Assembly (NCBI GenBank): GCA_002842095.1 | Contig: PHCB01000006.1 | Coordinates: 147,501-193,719 of the forward strand | Direction: 5' to 3' | Length of the DNA: 46,219 nucleotides | Source of the DNA: a candidate division BRC1 bacterium HGW-BRC1-1 | GTDB lineage: Bacteria; Sumerlaeota; Sumerlaeia; Sumerlaeales; Sumerlaeaceae | Shown here: positions 3,096 to 29,589 of the stretch, piece by piece | Position numbering within the stretch: position 1 is the first letter of the stretch | Layout: the number at the start of each line of letters is the position of its first letter | Notes under the pieces: model-generated | Seen by the model: only the letters and a program-made list of their open reading frames with translations | Databases searched by the model: none | What the model was told of the DNA's origin: nothing | Made by a program: the position numbers and the translations under genes

Positions 3096-3198
3096 AAAAA
3101 AAAGCAGGGTGCTGCTGGCTGTTTCACCACGCTGATGGGGAGCTGGTTGCCAGGGGGGGGCAACCACATCAGCGGTGCCGAAACGCCGCGCACCCTGC
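3096..3198 (-). ncRNA. Nested stem structure followed by U8 (ncRNA end or large terminator)
   Basis: Four helices nest perfectly: GCAGGGTGC/GCACCCTGC (3104-3112 with 3190-3198), GTTTC/GAAAC extended by GGC/GCC across a one-base bulge (3117-3125 with 3180-3187), CGCTGATG/CATCAGCG (3130-3137 with 3167-3174) and GGTTGCC/GGCAACC (3145-3151 with 3159-3165). On the minus strand the structure is followed at once by eight U (3103-3096). That fits the 3' end and terminator of an unannotated minus-strand RNA starting somewhere in 3200-3440. On the plus strand it would lie in the mqnD leader. It does not match tmRNA, RNase P, SRP or 6S consensus segments that I can recall. Confidence 0.5.
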
Positions 3199-9918: not shown

Positions 9919-11949
9919 TTAGTACATGCACCAGTCGTTCACACCAGCAGCAGCGTCAAAGCGCCACAGATCCACGGCGTTATCGCGCTGGGACAGCGTG
10001 GCGAGATATTGCGTGGTGCCCGAGGTGATGAAAACGGGCGAGCCGTTTTCGTCGATATTGCCGTTGGCTCCCGGCTCTCCGCCCACATACTCCACCTTGC
10101 CTGTGGCCAACTCAATGATGCCGGTTTTCACCGTGTAGTTGGTCGGCGTGCCGGTGTATTCGCGGTAAGACGAGAAAGCGATCCAACGTCCGGTCGGATC
10201 GGCCTTCAGCCAGTAGTTATCGCTGGACGTGCGCTTGTTCAACACAACCGCTGCGGGCGTGTCGAAGGTCGCCAGGTTGGCCAGTGTGGGGGCCGCGCCG
10301 GTGATCTTGATGAGGCTGCCCATGGCGTTGCCATAAAGCGTCTGGGAGGAAGCAACATAGACAGCACCCTGCCACATCTCGGTACCAGAAAGACTGGCGG
10401 TATCGGGCTTGTTGCCGGGGCTATCAATCAGCACGCCGCCGTCGGCTCCGGTCGTCGAATCAACCACACCGATCTGCTCCGGCGCAGCCATAAAGGGCGA
10501 CACCAGCAGCTTACCGTTGGTGTAGGCGATGGAACGGGGACGAACGCCCGCGCCATTTATCACCACGGGAGAAAGCGTTCCGGCCGTGCCGAAGGCTGCC
10601 ACCAGCGTACCTGCCGGGCTGTACTTCTTGATGTAAGAAGACGCCGCATCCGTACCCTGATAACCGATGTAGACGTTGTTGGAATCATCCAGCGTAACCA
10701 CGTTGTTGCTGCTGCTGAGGATGCTATCCGTTTGCCAGACAGCTACCGATGCCGCACCGGCCGGATTGGTGATCTTATAAATCTGGGAAGCCGCATAGTA
10801 GGCGCTGAAGTAAATGTTTCCGGCGGAATCGGCATCAAGGTTCTTTGCACGGGCTCCGGTGGGGATGACCGAAGTGATGTCGATGCGCTTGTCCCATACC
10901 CACGACGGTGCAGGAGCAGGCGTGGTGTTGACCGCAAATATCTTGAGTGACTTGCCCGATGCGGCGGGTGCCACGAGGTAGAGATTTCCGGCGGACCGGA
11001 AAAACTCCACCGCGGTGTAGCCGCTGATGTTGTTCGGCTGGCCGGGAACGTCGCCCACGAGGGTTTCGCGACCCGTGGCGATTTCGTACAGCGCATAGCG
11101 CTGATCTTGCAAGGCTGCCGCATTCTGGCGCGCGGAATAGGCGATGATGCCCGAGGTGGCATCAAAAGAGAGATTGCCGTCGTCAGTGTTGCGACGCCCG
11201 TGACGAGTGAGGAAGGTCGTGGTGTCGAAGGTCGCGAGGTTGGTCAGCGAAGCTGAAGCGCCTGTCAACTTTACCAAGTCGCCCTGGCTGTTGCCATACA
11301 AAGCGTTCGCGACTGGATCATAAGCGATGCCGCTCCACATGTCGTTACCCGTGTTAAGGCCGTTTTCGGTGGGATCGCCGGGGGTGGCAACCACACCCGT
11401 GTCGAACGCGCCCGTGGTGGCGTCAATAGAGAACAACTGCAGGGGAGCGCCCTTGAAGCTCATCATGACGAGTTTGTTGGTAGCTGCACCGGTGTAGGTG
11501 ATGGCGCGGGGACGGTGGTCGACACCTGAAATGTTGAAGGGGCCGGCAACACCCGCTGTTCCGAAGGTCGGGTCAAGGGTACCATCGGACTTATACTTGC
11601 GCACAACTGCATCGGCCACGGAAGTATAATTGGTGAGGTAAATATTGCCCGCGCCATCAGTGGCGAGGTACGAACCACTGGACGTGGGATAGGTGGCTCC
11701 GACGCTCCACGGATCGGTGACGGTGGCGACGCCCAGCGGATCGGTGATCTTGCGGATGGTGTGGGTCGGATCGCCGAAATAGGTGGTGTAGAACAGGTTT
11801 CCGTTTACGTCGGCGATGACGTCTTTTATCGCACCAGTTCCGGAGGGTGTATTGGCCGACAGGTCGATGGTTTTGACCAACGAGATGTCCATCGAGAATG
11901 CGGGCAGGGCGAGTGTGGCAACTGCTGCACACAATGCTAATTTGCGCAT
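9919..11949 (-). CDS. Secreted beta-propeller-like protein with internal duplication
   Basis: A 676-residue secreted protein: signal peptide MRKLALCAAVATLALPAFS, then repeated NHL/PQQ-like blades such as DVNGNLFYTTYFGD, DGAGNIYLTNY and DSAGNIYFSAYY. The two halves are clearly related. For example, GNDMWSGIAYDPVANALYG in the first half matches GTEMWQGAVYVASSQTLYG in the second, and each is followed by LTNLATFDT or LANLATFDT. It ends in DAAAGVNDWCMY, close to the end of the divergent neighbour at 12419. The start at 11949 has AAGGAA 9 nt upstream, and a longer ATG form would lose the signal peptide position. A terminator follows. No catalytic residues are seen; a structural or binding role outside the cell is likely. 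Confidence 0.8.
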   Translation of the reverse strand: MRKLALCAAVATLALPAFSMDISLVKTIDLSANTPSGTGAIKDVIADVNGNLFYTTYFGDPTHTIRKITDPLGVATVTDPWSVGATYPTSSGSYLATDGAGNIYLTNYTSVADAVVRKYKSDGTLDPTFGTAGVAGPFNISGVDHRPRAITYTGAATNKLVMMSFKGAPLQLFSIDATTGAFDTGVVATPGDPTENGLNTGNDMWSGIAYDPVANALYGNSQGDLVKLTGASASLTNLATFDTTTFLTRHGRRNTDDGNLSFDATSGIIAYSARQNAAALQDQRYALYEIATGRETLVGDVPGQPNNISGYTAVEFFRSAGNLYLVAPAASGKSLKIFAVNTTPAPAPSWVWDKRIDITSVIPTGARAKNLDADSAGNIYFSAYYAASQIYKITNPAGAASVAVWQTDSILSSSNNVVTLDDSNNVYIGYQGTDAASSYIKKYSPAGTLVAAFGTAGTLSPVVINGAGVRPRSIAYTNGKLLVSPFMAAPEQIGVVDSTTGADGGVLIDSPGNKPDTASLSGTEMWQGAVYVASSQTLYGNAMGSLIKITGAAPTLANLATFDTPAAVVLNKRTSSDNYWLKADPTGRWIAFSSYREYTGTPTNYTVKTGIIELATGKVEYVGGEPGANGNIDENGSPVFITSGTTQYLATLSQRDNAVDLWRFDAAAGVNDWCMY

Positions 11950-12418
11950 GATGTGATTCCTTTCGAAGCTATCGAATATGGCTGCCCTCGGCAACGCCTT
12001 CGAAGAGTACATGAAGTTTATTGAGGAGCAAAACTTTCATGCCTCGCACTCTAAGGCGCTCTGGGGCAGAATTGTTTTGAGGATCATCGCCCCAGCCTCA
12101 AAGTCAATCAAAAATATATCATTGAATTAAAGCTCTTGCGAGATCAGGAGGATCCGTCCCAGTCAGAGTGATTCTTTTATTCGAGTTGGTGGTCTCCCAC
12201 CAAGACAGGAGTCGAGACGGATTAAATATTACTGCGTAATAGCTCCTGAAAGAGATAGCAAACGGCAATTACCAGTATATCGGCGAGTGCAGAGAATCGT
12301 TGCCGCTACAGCGACACCCTCCATCCCGCTCTTTCCCTTGACTTCCATTTTTTCTTTCCCTTTAATATTATACTCCCGCCAAGCGGGAAAAGAAAACTGG
12401 CTCAAGGAGATGATACCC
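11950..12418. other. Divergent intergenic region between the two propeller genes
   Basis: This 469-bp gap must hold the control regions of both secreted-protein genes. A hairpin TTGGTGG/CCACCAA (12186-12203) has a TCTC loop on plus, or a GNRA-type GAGA loop on minus. It is flanked by ATCCGTC (12152-12158) and GACGGAT (12216-12222), which could close a larger stem. A weak sigma-70-like promoter is seen at 12338-12368, and a small CCCGC/GCGGG hairpin follows at about 12375-12387. No coding frame in it looks real. Confidence 0.5.
12338..12368 (+). promoter_or_regulatory. Possible sigma-70-type promoter of the 12419 gene
   Basis: TTGACT (12338-12343) and TAATAT (12363-12368) with a 19-bp spacer, in an A/T- and C-rich stretch. 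The spacing is longer than the usual 17, so this is tentative. Confidence 0.3.
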
Positions 12419-13609
12419 ATGAAGTTCAATTGGAAAAGGTTGCTGCAAGCTGTGGCAGTTGCCGCATTAACGACCACTTTCGCCCCTTCCGCGTGGGCAC
12501 AAACCGCATATCTTTATTACGCCGGTGGCGCGGTGAATCCGGTCACCAGCATCGACCCCGCCGACGTTCACACCGCCCCCACGGGCGATCAGGGTGTTTT
12601 CAGTGTCTGGGTTGCTGACATTAATCTGGCAGATGGCAGCGTCTCCAACTGGCGGCGGGCCGGTGCGCTGCTGCCGGAGGTGGGCGCGGCTCCCGCCGAC
12701 GATCTCTACTCGTGGCTCTTCGTTGAGAACACCGTCCACATTGCAAACGGCTACTTGTATGTGGGTGCCGGCGATTGGAATGGCGACGGCACACGCGACA
12801 CTGCCGATGTGCTGGCGTACGCGCGCATCAAATCCGACGGCACACTGGAGCCCTTCCAGCTTTCAGCCGTATTCCCCGGCACCCCCGATGATCAATCCAT
12901 CGGAGCCGGTGCACTGGTTAACGCCGGAGGCGGCAACGTATATTACTATATCCTCGGCGGTACCAGCAGCGGCACCGATCGCGTGATTTATACAAAACTC
13001 AACCCCACCAACGGCACACCGGGACCATGGAGTGTAACCACGAGCATCTCGGGAGCCGATTGGTTTAACCGCGCGGCCGTCGTGGGCACCACCATCATCG
13101 AGGCCAACGGTAACCTTCGCACAACCCGCGACGCGCGCTACGCCACCGTGACCCCCGCCACGGGAGCGCTGAGCGCGTGGTCGGCCCCAACGACTTACGA
13201 AGCCGGTGCCGGCCACTGGGATTACGCCATGACAAACGCCCGCTCCGGCGGCAACGATTTCGTGTACATCCTCGGCGGAGCGCCCTCGCCCATTACCACC
13301 GTGTTGAAGACGCAGGTGACCGCCGGCGTGCCCGGAGCCTGGACGCCCACCACCGCCCTGCCTGTTGATCTGCGACGTGTCACAGCAGCATCCGTGGATA
13401 ACTACGTGTATGTTTGCGGCGGCACGACAGGCACCAGTTCCATCACCGCCGCGGTGAGCACCGTGCAGATCGGCACCGTGGCAGCAAACGGCGACATCAC
13501 ATGGTCGGCCAGCCCCGCCAACATGCCCCAGGCCCGAGGCTTCGGTGGCGCAGCCATCGTGAAAGCCGCCGACATCGCCGCAGGCGTTGGCGGTTGGGAA
13601 ATGTACTAA
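12419..13609 (+). CDS. Secreted kelch-like beta-propeller protein
   Basis: A 396-residue secreted protein. A signal peptide with a basic start and an AWA cleavage site (residues 1-27) precedes blades of kelch type, with repeated GG turns: YYILGGTSSGTDR, FVYILGGAPSP and YVYVCGGTTGTSS. It ends ADIAAGVGGWEMY, sharing the pattern A-A-G-V-x-x-W-x-M-Y-COOH with the divergent 9919-11949 protein. The start at 12419 is preceded by AAGGAG at a 10-nt gap; a longer frame from 12287 lacks support and would bury the signal peptide. A strong terminator follows. The function is unknown; kelch propellers usually bind proteins or sugars. Confidence 0.8.
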   Translation: MKFNWKRLLQAVAVAALTTTFAPSAWAQTAYLYYAGGAVNPVTSIDPADVHTAPTGDQGVFSVWVADINLADGSVSNWRRAGALLPEVGAAPADDLYSWLFVENTVHIANGYLYVGAGDWNGDGTRDTADVLAYARIKSDGTLEPFQLSAVFPGTPDDQSIGAGALVNAGGGNVYYYILGGTSSGTDRVIYTKLNPTNGTPGPWSVTTSISGADWFNRAAVVGTTIIEANGNLRTTRDARYATVTPATGALSAWSAPTTYEAGAGHWDYAMTNARSGGNDFVYILGGAPSPITTVLKTQVTAGVPGAWTPTTALPVDLRRVTAASVDNYVYVCGGTTGTSSITAAVSTVQIGTVAANGDITWSASPANMPQARGFGGAAIVKAADIAAGVGGWEMY

Positions 13610-13876: not shown

Positions 13877-13930
13877 GTCCATTCAGTCCATATCGTCCAT
13901 AGTGTCCATCTCGTCCATCACGTCCATCAC
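13877..13930 (-). repeat. Six tandem 9-bp units (inverted copy of the 13714 array)
   Basis: On the plus strand the units read GTCCATNNN (GTCCATTCA, GTCCATATC, GTCCATAGT, GTCCATCTC, and GTCCATCAC twice), the reverse complement of the ATGGAC type. The last unit contains the stop codon of the PilT-like gene, so the mRNA of the minus-strand operon must carry the array at its 3' end. Confidence 0.9.
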
Positions 13931-15036
13931 GGCATCATCATCCGTTCGCCGGTTATCTGGCGGGGGTCTCTGGCTCGGCTTATGGCGGCGTCGTACGTAA
14001 TCACCGCCCGCTGGTACAGATCCGCCAGGCAGGCGTCCATGCTTATCATTCCCTCGCGGCGGCCGGTGGCCAGGGCGTTTTCTATTTTATGGACCGCGTT
14101 CTCGCGGATCATGTTGCGTACCGCGCCGGTGGGCAGCAGCACCTCGTAGGCCAGCACGCGACCCGTGCCGTCTGCCCGTGGGATCAACTCCTGCGCCAGC
14201 ACCCCCTGCAGCGAATTGGCCAACTGAAGAATGATCTGCTTCTGCTGATCCGCCGGAAAAACGCCGATGATCCGTTCCATGGTCTGTAGCACGTTGGGCG
14301 TGTGCAGCGTTGCCATGACCAGATGCCCCGTTTCCGCCGCGGTCAGCGCGGTGGAAATCGTTTCCAGTTCGCGCATTTCGCCGATCACAATCACGTCGGG
14401 ATTTTGCCGCAGCACGTGCACCAGCGCGCTGCTGAAGGAAAGCACATCGGTGTAAACTTCCTGCTGCACAATGAGCGACCGCAGCGGGCGATGGACGTAT
14501 TCCACGGGGTCTTCGATGGTGATAATTTTGCACCGACGCTCGCGGTTGATGAGATCGATCATGTGGTTGAGCGTGGTGGTTTTGCCCATGCCGGTGGGGC
14601 CGGTGATGAGCACCAGTCCGTTGGGGCGGCGCGCGAACTCGGCCACAATGGGCGGCAGACCCAGCGAGGCGGTGTCTTCAATTTCCAGCGAACACAGGCG
14701 CACCGACAACTCCGGCACGCCCGCATGGAAATAGACCGTCACGCGCATGCGCCCTGCTTCCTTGTCGAACACCGAGAAGCACAGCTCGCGGGTTTTCTCC
14801 AGATGCTCACGTTGCACTTCGTTGAGCAGACCCAGCGTCATGGCCGCCACTTCCTCGGCGCGCAACACATCCGCTTCCAGCATGACGATCTCGCCGTTCA
14901 CACGCAGCGCGGGGGGCAGCCCGGCAATCACATGCAGGTCGCTGGCCTGCTTGGCCCGGGCAATGCGGATCAGCGTGCCGAGATAATTGTTCTGGGTGGC
15001 AACGCCTTGCTGAAGGGTCTCGATGGCTTTCATCAT
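13927..15036 (-). CDS. pilT: PilT-like twitching motility ATPase
   Basis: A 369-residue secretion ATPase of the PilT/PilU type, which powers pilus retraction or disassembly at the inner membrane. An N-terminal domain (about 20-130, with KQASDLHVIAGLPPALRVNG) precedes the RecA-like core. The core has Walker A GPTGMGKT (146-153), the Asp box IITIEDPVEYVH (171-182), Walker B VIVIGEMR (215-222) and the His box ETGHLVMATLHT (235-246). Its start codon overlaps the stop of the TPR gene (ATGA), so it is translated with it as the last gene of the operon. No pilB, pilC or pilM-Q genes are in the window; the only pilin-like gene is at 22068. PilU or another GspE-clade motor is possible. Confidence 0.88.
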   Translation of the reverse strand: MMKAIETLQQGVATQNNYLGTLIRIARAKQASDLHVIAGLPPALRVNGEIVMLEADVLRAEEVAAMTLGLLNEVQREHLEKTRELCFSVFDKEAGRMRVTVYFHAGVPELSVRLCSLEIEDTASLGLPPIVAEFARRPNGLVLITGPTGMGKTTTLNHMIDLINRERRCKIITIEDPVEYVHRPLRSLIVQQEVYTDVLSFSSALVHVLRQNPDVIVIGEMRELETISTALTAAETGHLVMATLHTPNVLQTMERIIGVFPADQQKQIILQLANSLQGVLAQELIPRADGTGRVLAYEVLLPTGAVRNMIRENAVHKIENALATGRREGMISMDACLADLYQRAVITYDAAISRARDPRQITGERMMMP

Positions 15037-22067: not shown

Positions 22068-22619
22068 ATGTCCAGAAACGCTTTCACCCTCATTGAACTT
22101 CTGATTGTGGTCGCCATTATCTCCATTCTTGCGGCCATTGCCGTTCCCAACTTTATGGAGGCGCAAGCCCGCAGCAAGGTATCGCGCGCCCGCACCGACA
22201 TGCGCACCCTGGCCACCGCGCTGGAAACTTACATGGTGGATAATAACCGCTATCCACCCAACTGGGAATATAGCAACGAGCGCCTCCTTCCCTCCAATCT
22301 CTCGTCGCCCATTGCCTATCTCACGTCGTTGCCCACGGACCCTTTCCGCACGTCTTTCGATTACGTGCTGCGTCGCTATGATTATCACAACGTGCAGGAA
22401 TTGGTTGATCGCGGAGAAAGCAGCTGGCCGCCGAACGATCTGCGCCGCTATGGCCAGTGGCGCTTTGTGAGTTACGGCCCCAAGGGCGAATATCTGCCAT
22501 GGATGCCGTACGACTCCACCAACGGCACCGTGAGCGCGGGCAACGTGCTGCGCACACATCTCAGCCCCGAGGGGCACATCATGTATGACTTCTGGGATCC
22601 GGCAAACCCGTATTCCTGA
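22068..22619 (+). CDS. Type IV prepilin-like / pseudopilin protein
   Basis: A 183-residue protein with a class III leader: MSRNA, then FTLIELLIVVAIISILAAIAVP, the hydrophobic pilin helix with Glu at position +5. The residue before the cut is Ala, not the usual Gly. The next part, NFMEAQARSKVSRARTD, is typical of prepilin-like proteins in many uncultured phyla. The body (about 50-183) has the GspG-like NNRYPPN and ends in HIMYDFWDPANPYS. The start has AGAGG about 10 nt upstream. A prepilin peptidase would process it and a T2SS- or T4P-like machine would assemble it; neither is in the window. It may be served by the PilT-like ATPase at 13927, which is inference. Confidence 0.85.
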   Translation: MSRNAFTLIELLIVVAIISILAAIAVPNFMEAQARSKVSRARTDMRTLATALETYMVDNNRYPPNWEYSNERLLPSNLSSPIAYLTSLPTDPFRTSFDYVLRRYDYHNVQELVDRGESSWPPNDLRRYGQWRFVSYGPKGEYLPWMPYDSTNGTVSAGNVLRTHLSPEGHIMYDFWDPANPYS

Positions 22620-22655
22620 TCTGAAATAATTCGCTTCATGAACGAGGACAACATC

Positions 22656-23399
22656 ATGATTTCTCTACAGCACCTTTGCGTTACCGCCGTTTCGCTGGCG
22701 ACCTTGATCACCTGCCCGGGCCCGGTTGCGGCGCAAGCTGCCCCTACGACCCGCACAACCACCGCCACGGCGACGAAGCCCACCACCATGAGCCTGCGCC
22801 TTCAGGTATTTCACAAACGCATGGCCGAGATCGACGCTGATCTGGCAGCCCTGCCGGCCGATACGACAGGCACCGTGGTGATGCTGGGCGATTCCATCAC
22901 CGAGGGTTTCCGCGCGAAGGAACTTGCCGGCTGGCGTGTGATGAACCAGGGCATTAACAGCGATGCCATCCGCATCTCCAACGGCGAAGCCGGCGGCGTG
23001 GCGTCGCGCATTGACCGCGTGAAGGCTGCCCGCCCGGCGCACATTTTTCTGCTCATCGGGATTAACGATTTCGGTGGCGGCAAACCGGTGGACACCGCCG
23101 AGGCGCACTACCGCGATGTGGTGAAAGCCCTGCGCGAGGCCGCTCCGGACGCGACGCTGCATCTGCAAACCATCATGCCCACCGGCGGAAGATATGCGCG
23201 GCTGAACGTGTCGGTGAACGATATGAACAAGCGCATCGTGCAGATCGCGAAAGAGAACAATCTCGATTTGATCGACCTGCATGCCGTGATGGCCGACGAG
23301 AAGAACGAGTTGAAAGCCGAATGGACCCCTGAAGGCCTGCACCTCAAAGCCCCGGCCTACGCCGCGTGGGAAAAGGTTGTGGTGGATCGGTTGGAATAA
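22656..23399 (+). CDS. Secreted SGNH/GDSL hydrolase
   Basis: A 247-residue exported esterase-like protein. A signal peptide (1-27) and a Thr/Ala linker precede the SGNH core: block I GDSITEG (Ser80), block II with Gly99 in MNQGINSDAI, block III with Asn137 in LIGINDFG, and block V with His229 in EGLHLKAPAY. In block V the usual Asp (D-x-x-H) is Glu226. Members of this group resemble platelet-activating-factor acetylhydrolase or carbohydrate O-acetylesterases. The ATG at 22656 has GAGGA 8 nt upstream; an ATG six codons earlier is possible. It lies 36 nt after the prepilin-like gene and may be co-transcribed. The substrate is unknown; sugar-ester deacetylation is most likely. Confidence 0.82.
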   Translation: MISLQHLCVTAVSLATLITCPGPVAAQAAPTTRTTTATATKPTTMSLRLQVFHKRMAEIDADLAALPADTTGTVVMLGDSITEGFRAKELAGWRVMNQGINSDAIRISNGEAGGVASRIDRVKAARPAHIFLLIGINDFGGGKPVDTAEAHYRDVVKALREAAPDATLHLQTIMPTGGRYARLNVSVNDMNKRIVQIAKENNLDLIDLHAVMADEKNELKAEWTPEGLHLKAPAYAAWEKVVVDRLE

Positions 23400-26600: not shown

Positions 26601-28112
26601 ATGACGCAATCCGCCGCGAACGACTACGATTCGTCCACCTCGTTGAAGCCCGTGACCAATCTCGTGCGCGTGCGTTTGCTGGTGGCCATCCCGGTCATGA
26701 TGGTTCTCATGCTCACCACCATGGTGGGCGTGTTGTATCAAATCACCGACTGGCAACTCGCCGAACAACTCACCGCCGCCAACACGGAAGTGGAATTAAA
26801 ATACAGCCGCATGCTGGTGTTCTGGCTTGTTACGCTCTTTATTTTCGACATCGCCGGGGCGGTGGCCGGATACCTCATCGCGCGCTCTATTTCGCGTCCC
26901 CTCGAAAAAATGATGCTGGCCTCGCGACGCGTTGCCGGCGGCGACTTCACCATCAAGGCACCCGCCGAATCGCAGGACGAGGTGGGCCTGTTGGGGCACT
27001 CCTTCAATGCCATGATCGACTCTCTCAATCGTTTTTTCTCGTCGCGCAACCGGTTCATTCTCGAAAGTTTCACGGGGGGACTCATCACGGCCGACCTTAA
27101 CGGCACCATCACGGCCATCAACAGTGCCGCAGAAACGATGCTCGATCTCGGCCAGATGGAGGCCCAGGGCAAACCCGTGGCGAAGGCCTTCCCCTCTGAA
27201 CGGCTCGGCGCACTGACCGCCGCCGTGGAGGAAATCCTCTGGAGCGGTGGCACCGCAGACCAGCGCAACATTACCATCACATCAAACGAGGGAAAAACGA
27301 CGCACCTCAACGTGCGGTTCAGCTTTATGCGCGATAAATCCGACCGCCCCTTCGGTTTGATCATCAACATGCGTGACATGTCCGAGTTGCAGAAATTTTA
27401 CGAACAGATGAGCCGCGCCGACCGTCTGGCCACGGTGGGAACTTTCGCCACGGGTCTGGCCCATGAGGTGCGCAATCCCCTCGGTGCCATCAAGGCCACG
27501 GCCCAACTGCTGGCCGAGGACCTCGCCGACGACGAGCGCATGTGCGGTTTCACACAGATCATTGTGGATGAGACCAACCGCTTGGATCAACTTGTGCGCG
27601 AGGTGCAGGAACTGAGCCAGTCGGCCACGCCCCTGGTGAGCGCCGATCTGAATGATGTGGTGCGCGAATGTCTGCGGGTGGCTCTGAGCAGCGGCAAGGC
27701 CCCGGGGTGCGATCAATTGACGATCAATGAATCGTACGATGCGGCCCTTCCCGCCCTGCCGCTCTCTCCCGGCAAGATCCGTCAGGCATTATTGAACGTG
27801 CTCATCAATGCCCTTCAGGCCGCACCGCCCGCCGGCAGCATCTGTGTGACCACGGCGCTGCGGCCCGATGAACCGTTGCCGGCGGTAATCAGCGTGGTGA
27901 ACAAAGGGACTTCAATCGCACCCGATGACCTGGCCAAAGTCTTCGAACCATTCTTTACTACCAAAGATCAAGGCACGGGGCTCGGGCTTGCCATCACGGC
28001 ACAAATCATTCGACACCACGGTGGAGAGATTCATTTGATGAACACAGATGAAGGAGTAGCGATGGTTATATCGCTGCCCTTAAAATCGCCGGAGCCTGAT
28101 GTTGCCTTCTGA
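26601..28112 (+). CDS. NtrB-type sensor histidine kinase
   Basis: A 503-residue membrane kinase: TM1 about 24-46, a short periplasmic stretch, TM2 about 70-95, HAMP (about 92-146), a PAS domain (about 150-265), then HisKA with the phospho-acceptor His288 in GLAHEVRNPLGAIKA and the HATPase. The N box is LLNVLINALQAA. The G1 box, usually D-x-G-x-G, reads NKGTSI here, while G2 (GTGLGL) is intact. It overlaps the NtrC-type regulator gene by 14 bp, so the two are a co-translated pair. It is predicted to phosphorylate that regulator. The stimulus is unknown; the short periplasmic part suggests an envelope or cytoplasmic PAS signal. Confidence 0.87.
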   Translation: MTQSAANDYDSSTSLKPVTNLVRVRLLVAIPVMMVLMLTTMVGVLYQITDWQLAEQLTAANTEVELKYSRMLVFWLVTLFIFDIAGAVAGYLIARSISRPLEKMMLASRRVAGGDFTIKAPAESQDEVGLLGHSFNAMIDSLNRFFSSRNRFILESFTGGLITADLNGTITAINSAAETMLDLGQMEAQGKPVAKAFPSERLGALTAAVEEILWSGGTADQRNITITSNEGKTTHLNVRFSFMRDKSDRPFGLIINMRDMSELQKFYEQMSRADRLATVGTFATGLAHEVRNPLGAIKATAQLLAEDLADDERMCGFTQIIVDETNRLDQLVREVQELSQSATPLVSADLNDVVRECLRVALSSGKAPGCDQLTINESYDAALPALPLSPGKIRQALLNVLINALQAAPPAGSICVTTALRPDEPLPAVISVVNKGTSIAPDDLAKVFEPFFTTKDQGTGLGLAITAQIIRHHGGEIHLMNTDEGVAMVISLPLKSPEPDVAF

Positions 28113-29589
28113 AAACACCCCCACAAAACCCGTGATGAACACCGACCACGCACCCCGCGTGTTGATCGCCGACGACGAAAAAAACCTTCGCACGTTGATG
28201 AGCGAGGTCATGCGCCGCCAGGGCTACGCCGTGGAAACCGCCGAGAATGGTGAGGAGGCCGTGGCGAAGGTTCGCGAGCTGGATTTCGACGTGGTGCTGC
28301 TGGATGTAAAAATGCCGCGCATGGACGGCCTCACGGCGCTGCGCGAAATTCGCACCATTTCGCCCAACACCATCGTCGTCATGATGACCGCTTTTGAAAA
28401 CCGTGAGGTTGCCCTCGAATCCATCCGCCATGGCGCTTACGATTTCTTTAACAAGCCCTTCGAACTCGAAGAGATTCGCGTGGTCGTGCGCCGCGCCATC
28501 GAGAAACGGCACCTGTTGCAACAAATCAACAACCTCGAAGAGCGCCTGCAGGGGCGCATCAGCTTCGATCGCATCATCGGGCGCAGCGACGCCATGCGGC
28601 ACGTCTTCGACCTGATCCAGCGCGTGGTGACGAACGACGTGACGGTGCTCGTGACCGGCGAAAGCGGCACCGGCAAGGAACTAGTCGCGCAGGCCATCCA
28701 TTTCCATTCGACCCGCCGCTCGAAGCCCTTCGTAGGGGTCAACTGTGCGGCCATCCCCGAGCCCTTGCTGGAAAGCGAAATGTTCGGCCACGAACGCGGA
28801 GCGTTCACCGGCGCTGTGGCCAACCACATGGGGCGCTTCGAACAGGCCAACGGCGGAACCATATTCCTGGACGAAATCGGCGACATGCCCCATTCGCTGC
28901 AGAGCAAACTTTTGCGCGTGTTGCAGGAGCGCGAGATCATCCGCGTGGGGGGCACCCGCCCCATCCGCATCGACGTTCGTGTGGTGGCGGCCACCAACCA
29001 GAATCTGCAAACTGCGGTGGAGAACAAAACCTTCCGCGAAGATCTTTTCTTCCGGCTGAACGTGCTGCCCATCGTGGTTCCGCCGCTGCGCAAACGTCAG
29101 GCGGACATCGCGTTGTTGGTGAACCATTTCATCGGCGTACACAATCCGCGACTGGGGCGCAACATTCAGGGCGTGGACAAGCCGGCCATGGAAGCCCTGG
29201 AGCATTACTTCTGGCCTGGAAACGTACGCGAGTTGGAGAACGTCATCCAGCGCTCCATGGTTCTCTCGGCGTCGCCCTTCATCACTCTCGAAACCCTGCC
29301 CGACGACGTGCACCGGGAACCAACCGAGGCCGACATGGCCCGTCGGAAGGAAGTGGACGCTTTGTTGCCGGCCGAGGTGATGGATGATTTTAATATTCCC
29401 ATGCAGGAAAAAATCGACCGGGTGAACGAAGGTTTGGAGATACGCCTGATTGAGGAAGCTCTCAACCGCTGCAACGGAAAGCGTCAGCCGACGGCAGACC
29501 TTCTGGGAATCTCACGCAAGTCGCTGCACAATAAAATGGCAAAGTACGAATTGTTTGCCGATCGCGAAGACACCGAAAGCGACGATTGA
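28099..29589 (+). CDS. NtrC-family sigma-54 activator
   Basis: A 496-residue response regulator with three domains. The receiver (about 20-137) has Asp25/Asp26 and the phospho-acceptor Asp69 in VVLLDVKMP. The AAA+ domain (about 157-395) has Walker A GESGTGKE (187-194), GAFTGA (234-239, the sigma-54 contact) and Walker B IFLDEI (255-260). A Fis-type HTH near 455-490 contains RQPTADLLGISRKSLHNKM. GAFTGA is intact, so it should open sigma-54 promoters. Starts at 28099 and 28135 are both possible; 28099 overlaps the kinase. The likely target is the FN3 lipoprotein gene, whose own -24/-12 promoter lies at 32583-32598. Confidence 0.92.
   Translation: MLPSENTPTKPVMNTDHAPRVLIADDEKNLRTLMSEVMRRQGYAVETAENGEEAVAKVRELDFDVVLLDVKMPRMDGLTALREIRTISPNTIVVMMTAFENREVALESIRHGAYDFFNKPFELEEIRVVVRRAIEKRHLLQQINNLEERLQGRISFDRIIGRSDAMRHVFDLIQRVVTNDVTVLVTGESGTGKELVAQAIHFHSTRRSKPFVGVNCAAIPEPLLESEMFGHERGAFTGAVANHMGRFEQANGGTIFLDEIGDMPHSLQSKLLRVLQEREIIRVGGTRPIRIDVRVVAATNQNLQTAVENKTFREDLFFRLNVLPIVVPPLRKRQADIALLVNHFIGVHNPRLGRNIQGVDKPAMEALEHYFWPGNVRELENVIQRSMVLSASPFITLETLPDDVHREPTEADMARRKEVDALLPAEVMDDFNIPMQEKIDRVNEGLEIRLIEEALNRCNGKRQPTADLLGISRKSLHNKMAKYELFADREDTESDD

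Follow-up and report, generated by a model that had tools for sequence, protein, structure and literature searches.

A short C-terminal tag on secreted proteins

We analyzed a 46,219-nucleotide stretch from the candidate division BRC1 bacterium HGW-BRC1-1 (Sumerlaeota; contig PHCB01000006.1, positions 147,501 to 193,719), hereafter the window, and found that two divergent genes for predicted secreted proteins end with the same short peptide, which recurs at 40 protein ends of this genome and in two phyla. This peptide is almost certainly a real, selected C-terminal tag. It looks like an undescribed export address label, placed on otherwise unrelated proteins of two little-studied phyla.

The first protein, of propeller type, is encoded on the minus strand (9919..11949, within an open frame 9919-12012) and has 676 residues when counted from the start of its predicted signal peptide, MRKLALCAAVATLALPAFS (11893..11949, minus strand). 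The second, a kelch-like protein of 396 residues, is encoded on the plus strand (12419..13609, within an open frame 12287-13609) and begins with the predicted signal peptide MKFNWKRLLQAVAVAALTTTFAPSAWA (12419..12499, plus strand); both signal peptides were recognized by eye. The lengths of 676 and 396 residues given in a sequence-only reading of this DNA are those obtained from the signal-peptide starts, 11949 and 12419, and the two ends that it described as shared, AAGVNDWCMY and AAGVGGWEMY, are indeed found at the ends of the listed open reading frames (ORFs), where together with their stop codons they cover 9919..9951 on the minus strand and 13577..13609 on the plus strand. A W-x-[NTN codon]-Y-stop arrangement was seen twice in the window, against 0.16 expected.

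The 676-residue protein matches the DUF5122 propeller and CssAB in Pfam, both below threshold, and the 396-residue protein has a sub-threshold match to Kelch. The structure model of the former, calculated with one relative, is nearly all strand (mean pLDDT 68.9, pTM 0.54), and a fold search with it retrieved mostly propeller-type proteins, as judged by their names, with whole-length TM-scores of at most about 0.3; the best single propeller was 8wkl, at a TM-score of 0.65 by target. The single-sequence structure of the 396-residue protein was unusable (mean pLDDT 37.7). In the model of the 676-residue protein, the final strand stops at residue 665 and residues 667–676 all have a pLDDT below 50; the modelled tail is probably flexible. 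A relative of this protein in genome G034 (locus L199), 41% identical, ends in AAGVGEWGLY. The neighbouring secreted protein had no relative among the viral contigs searched.

Pattern counts over the window's own genome carry the case for the tag. Preceding TRR, which comprises the stop-type codons plus the sense codon TGG, the pattern V-x-x-W-x-Φ-[YF] (GTNNNNNNNTGGNNNNTNTWYTRR, where Φ is Leu, Ile, Met, or Val) has 43 matches, compared with 9 for the reversed pattern. Of these matches, three have TGG in place of a stop codon, and each of the other 40 closes an open frame longer than 100 codons (measured from stop to stop), some of these frames running past the end of the locus. The stricter form V-x-[DE]-W-x-Φ-Y is found 25 times before TRR and only once before VNN, even though VNN spans 12 times as many codons. 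Summed across all 40 Sumerlaeota genomes, the corresponding counts are 181 and 86. Counting against the tag, neither of two looser patterns is in excess in the own genome, W-x-Φ-[YF]-TRR being found 119 times (149 reversed) and V-x-x-W-x-x-x-TRR 475 times (451 reversed); the signal resides in the combined positions.

The 40 tags also agree outside the search pattern: position −9 is Ala in 28 of them and Ser in the other 12. Position −5 is Asp in 27, position −2 is Leu (19), Ile (9), Val (7), or Met (5), and position −1 is Tyr (35) or Phe (5), with varying codon usage at the Val and at positions −2 and −1. The resulting consensus, [AST]-[GSA]-V-x-[D/E/G]-W-x-[L/I/M/V]-Y, is broader than the motif A-A-G-V-x-x-W-x-M-Y put forward from the window's two proteins, although the shared end that this motif captured is real. 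Seven tails of 21–24 residues, compared with Pfam and NCBIfam at E-values of up to 10, matched no model save for a stray homoserine kinase (E 0.061). Tag codons also close frames of 30 and 5 codons, at 14686-14700 of locus L107 and 3125-3139 of locus L108, respectively, both on contig C21 of the own genome; lying within a cluster of tagged genes, these short frames are perhaps decayed or frameshifted copies. By-eye inspection of that cluster recognized no machinery.

Tagged proteins begin, almost without exception, like exported proteins. With home-made, permissive ORF calling and a simple signal-peptide rule of the same kind, signal-peptide-like starts were found in 31 of 32 complete tagged frames of the own genome versus 56 of 176 untagged ones, in 15 of 16 versus 96 of 230 in other Sumerlaeota loci, and in 21 of 22 versus 104 of 207 in the second phylum. 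The sequence-only reading had likened the shared end to a sorting tag devoid of a helix and of a basic tail, and had proposed to look for other secreted proteins ending in the same way, whose absence would speak against it. The 40 frames of the own genome and the recurrence of the tag in two phyla support this reading, in which the tag would sort proteins.

The bodies that precede the tag are diverse. Pfam matches at E 1e-4 were obtained for 15 of the 20 tagged proteins scanned among these 40, with 14 above the curated cut-off. They include GH18 (chitinase), M23 and M14 peptidases, GDPD with laminin G, polysaccharide deacetylases, NAGPA, β-helix, Golvesin_C, and propellers. Since the bodies are so varied, the tag appears as a separate module; it is not special to propellers, on which it had first been noticed.

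Distribution and variants of the tag

Among 40 Sumerlaeota genomes, 25 contain the strict form V-x-[DE]-W-x-Φ-Y-stop. It also occurs in one further lineage and in 13 of the 14 genomes from the phylum to which Hinthialibacteria OLB16 belongs (also the phylum of genome G182, hereafter the OLB16 phylum). When 386 genomes were scanned, 55 matched: 25 Sumerlaeota genomes plus G182, G319, and G304 (at least five hits each), and 27 of the 343 other genomes. The latter have one or two hits each, and their total of 29, compared with about 45 for the reversed control as counted by hand, is at chance level. A scan with a narrower pattern yielded 28 loci, of which 19 are from Sumerlaeota/BRC1, two from Hinthialibacteria OLB16, and seven from elsewhere. 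In the Sumerlaeota/BRC1 and OLB16 loci, 21 in total, the match always falls at the end of an open frame. Six of the seven others were discarded, as they are not tag-ended signal-peptide ORFs of at least 100 residues, and the sole exception is a signal-peptide protein of an Omnitrophota contig (locus L137) with the C terminus ASGVRDWFLY.

Two strict-negative genomes, G386 and G004, were searched for variants of the tag. Loci of G386 picked only for their pilins carry the ends VPAGGWELYR, VPTGAWELYR, VPLAGWDRYR, and SEVASWRLY, and G004 has GTRRWELYEQ, DVRRWDTYR, NVQRWENYR, and SAQHWELYR. Tails with one extra residue, DWTLYE and DWNLFE, occur in named Sumerlaeota (loci L129 and L131). The core common to these variants is W-x-x-[YF], located at the end of the protein or at most two residues from it.

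Pilin-like genes beside tagged genes

The 635 ORFs at 60 loci around tagged genes include a type IV pilin-like family, which is the commonest untagged one, with 20 ORFs in 14 loci, and is followed by an ABC-ATPase-like family and a membrane-protein family, in six loci each. All eight pilin-like examples compared with Pfam match N_methyl, and four of them match T2SSG, at E 0.01. The tag expressions differ slightly among the signal-peptide, pilin-distance, neighbour-comparison, and downstream-motif counts. The 40 tag-centred loci from the two phyla contain 21 pilins, 10 of which are no more than 150 bp from a tagged gene (eight of them on the same strand), while random placement gave a mean of 0.94 and a maximum of 5 in 2000 runs. 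Within this distance, a pilin is found for 10 of 43 tagged genes, for 7 of 188 untagged genes with a signal peptide (Fisher p 1.4e-4), and for 4 of 296 other genes. Of 81 tagged genes in a count on shorter loci, involving partly the same genes, 9 have a pilin motif less than 1.5 kb downstream, versus about 1.14 expected; the expected values are rough averages, and three of the nine positive loci (L158, L160, and L171) fall inside those of the pilin-distance count. Pilin and tagged genes form pairs and, in locus L226, a pilin-tagged-pilin triplet. In G386, 5 of 23 pilins lie by tagged genes, against a null value of 0.46 (three of six tagged genes with a narrower expression), and these figures are descriptive because the variants were already known when the tag expression was broadened. 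Over all 55 genomes compared, relatedness being ignored, tag and pilin counts correlate with a Spearman coefficient of 0.54; given genome size, the partial Spearman coefficient is 0.59 for 43 genomes, with 12 genomes (families f2-f8 and G386) left out.

The pilin expansion in the OLB16 phylum is very large, with 111, 125, 115, and 144 pilin-type N-terminal motifs in genomes G387, G388, G390, and G392, respectively. A pilin-like protein of the window's own genome (locus L007, 2108-2860, plus strand) has itself the C terminus DVLWSIY, which is tag-like with the Val one place off.

Candidate machinery

Outside the window's family, genes matching components of the type II secretion system (T2SS) are present in many tag-bearing genomes, in both phyla. 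According to Pfam, one operon of G319, of the second phylum (locus L295), encodes GspE, F, K, and D domains, and G016, of Sumerlaeota (locus L299), has GspK together with a split secretin. In ten further loci analyzed with tblastn, E and F were found in 10 of 10, K in eight, and D in seven. The window carries a gene for a PilT-family type IV pilus (T4P) ATPase (13927..15036, minus strand; TIGR01420, 397.2 bits with a cut-off of 319.1), which converges with the tagged kelch-like gene. The window also encodes a GspG-like pilin (22068..22619, plus strand). As PF03934 (GspK) gives no match in the own genome and the four matches examined in the window's family are ComEA-type, T4P parts such as these are the only ones shown there. 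PF03934 turned out to be a poor T2SS marker, since it also matches Bacillus subtilis and other controls with no need of a T2SS.

The exosortase family was considered as a partner of the tag and rejected: PF09721 matches eight of the 55 genomes, of which six belong to the 39 strict-tag-positive and two to the 16 strict-negative ones, and does not track the tag. The own genome has one exosortase-family gene (G000:C23:29426-30151, locus L190), which lies in a frame of 521 codons and has no obvious connection with the tag. A sensor kinase and an NtrC-type regulator form a pair in the window (26601-29589). With the model for PEP-CTERM-box response regulators, the regulator scores 431.7 bits, which is lower than the model's cut-off (502.6) and ranks below AtoC.

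Possible roles of the tag

The tag is likely to be a sorting or docking signal. Our preferred explanation, to which we would give an even chance, is that it acts as a short linear motif for sorting, placed at the C terminus and recognized by a type IV filament-family machine. In favour of this are the stop dependence and the spread of the tag, the diversity of tagged bodies, their signal-peptide-like starts, the low-confidence tail of the 676-residue model, the adjacency and correlated counts of pilin-like genes, the variant tags in G386 loci picked for pilins only, and the T2SS genes of tag-bearing genomes in both phyla. The tagged protein would be exported by Sec across the inner membrane by means of its ordinary signal peptide and would then fold, leaving the tail [AST]-[GSA]-V-x-D-W-x-L-Y exposed. 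The tail would dock on an envelope receptor that either carries the protein across the outer membrane or holds it at the surface. That the reader of the tag belongs to the type IV filament family is about evenly balanced; the receptor would most likely be part of the T2SS where there is one, and otherwise of a T4P-like machine, helped by the pilin-like subunits often encoded beside tagged genes. In a broader and more tentative form of this proposal, the W-x-x-Y core would be a general linear C-terminal secretion signal of a filament-family machine, with sets of pilin-like subunits expanded next to their cargo.

Several observations weigh against a filament-family reader. No PF03934 match was found in 7 of the 55 genomes (the window's own genome, G000, as well as G012, G029, G031, G033, G036, and G386), the four matches examined in the window's family (G030, G032, G034, and G035) are of the ComEA type, and tblastn with GspE, F, K, and D gave no match in 11 loci of that family, so that no T2SS proper is shown where the tags are most numerous. 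No receptor and no processing enzyme was found, and no candidate enzyme recurs by tagged genes among the 635 ORFs of the 60 loci. Of the linked transport or processing gene that the sequence-only reading asked for, pilin-like genes were found as statistical neighbours, and no dedicated enzyme was. Most tagged genes have no adjacent pilin, and the link is weak in the own genome, with 1 of 26 tagged genes (20 loci) in the distance count and 1 of 29 in the downstream count. Pilin motifs, which number from 12 to 144 per genome overall, are plentiful in strict-negative genomes too, and the correlation of tag and pilin counts ignores phylogeny. The GspG-like pilin gene of the window lies 18 bp before a gene for an untagged secreted GDSL hydrolase (22068-23399 for the pair), so secreted enzymes without the tag can also be paired with pilins. 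Finally, because tails with extra residues exist, a free carboxylate on the Tyr is not required.

The tag may instead serve display, fastening exported proteins to a surface polymer, such as a pilin-like filament, and playing no part in transport. The pilin-tagged pairs, the L226 triplet, the abundance of pilin motifs, and the glycan- or peptidoglycan-acting enzymes among the tagged proteins would fit such a role. We nevertheless consider it unlikely, as most tagged genes lack an adjacent pilin, and sequence alone does not separate transport from display. Processing of the tag by a sortase-like enzyme, which would recognize and cut it and join the protein to a surface anchor, is improbable. 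It would account for one C-terminal tag on many unrelated cargoes, and the small residues at positions −9 and −8 would suit a cleavage site, but the tails have neither helix nor basic end, the exosortase family is spread over tag-positive and strict-negative genomes alike, and no enzyme candidate recurs by tagged genes, rhombosortase, sortase, and type IX genes not having been searched for.

PDZ-type and tail-specific proteases read short hydrophobic C-terminal ends. By analogy, the hydrophobic end and the low-confidence tail of the 676-residue model could point to a degradation or stress tag read by such a periplasmic protease, a very remote prospect given that the conserved Trp −4, Val −7, and Ala/Ser −9 exceed such short ends and that variants carry one or two extra residues. 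Equally far-fetched is a tail inherited as the terminal portion of a shared domain or spread by gene duplication: Golvesin_C is common to 6 of the 20 tagged proteins scanned and some tagged proteins are mutually homologous, but the tags follow GH18, M14, M23, GDPD, β-helix, and propeller bodies alike, their codons vary, and in the 676-residue model the tail comes after the last strand.

Our searches of the open literature, several of them dominated by unrelated papers, found no description of such a signal in Sumerlaeota or in the OLB16 phylum; passages of one paper mention the signal peptides of chitinases (PMC8092238). With its length of about nine residues, the tag labels a portion of the proteins predicted to be exported in these phyla; it could predict which proteins leave the cell and offers a peptide bait for the receptor. 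Substrate recruitment by the T2SS is called elusive in the abstract of PMC7949064. If the receptor does belong to a T2SS or a T4P-like machine, this question would become testable with one short peptide, and the tag would provide a one-motif answer, in two phyla, to how a filament-family machine chooses its substrates.

Comparison with known systems

Like the signals of type IX secretion, the tag would be a soluble C-terminal export signal. The type IX C-terminal domains are folded and have roughly 80 residues, in contrast to the nine-residue tail described here, and seven tails gave no Pfam or NCBIfam domain match; genes of the type IX apparatus were not searched for. The β-signal of outer-membrane barrels consists of alternating hydrophobic residues that end a membrane β-barrel. 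It was rejected as a model, the invariant Trp at −4 being out of register with the Tyr at −1 and the tagged bodies including soluble enzymes and propeller-like proteins.

The PEP-CTERM/exosortase system shares with the tag the use of a single C-terminal signal on many unrelated signal-peptide proteins. IPTL-CTERM, a variant of this system, starts with IPTLSEWG[ML], a start that the tag core V-x-[DE]-W-x-[LM] resembles. The tag differs in its length of about nine residues and in lacking a transmembrane helix and a basic tail: no PEP-CTERM-type helix and basic cluster follow W-x-x-[YF], as the tails end at most two residues from the core, and exosortase does not follow the tag. In the GlyGly-CTERM/rhombosortase system, too, secreted proteins end in a tag, one with a Gly-rich motif and a membrane helix; no helix was found in the W-x-x-Y tails, and the rhombosortase gene was not searched for. 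Species with GlyGly-CTERM generally also have type II secretion systems, as stated in passages of PMC3237569.

Tagged proteins resemble the substrates of type II secretion, which are folded enzymes exported by Sec, in that they carry signal-peptide-like N termini by our home-made rule. For Pel3 and PelI, passages of PMC7949064 describe recognition by several loops acting jointly; a linear motif shared at the C terminus would be a novelty among T2SS substrates.

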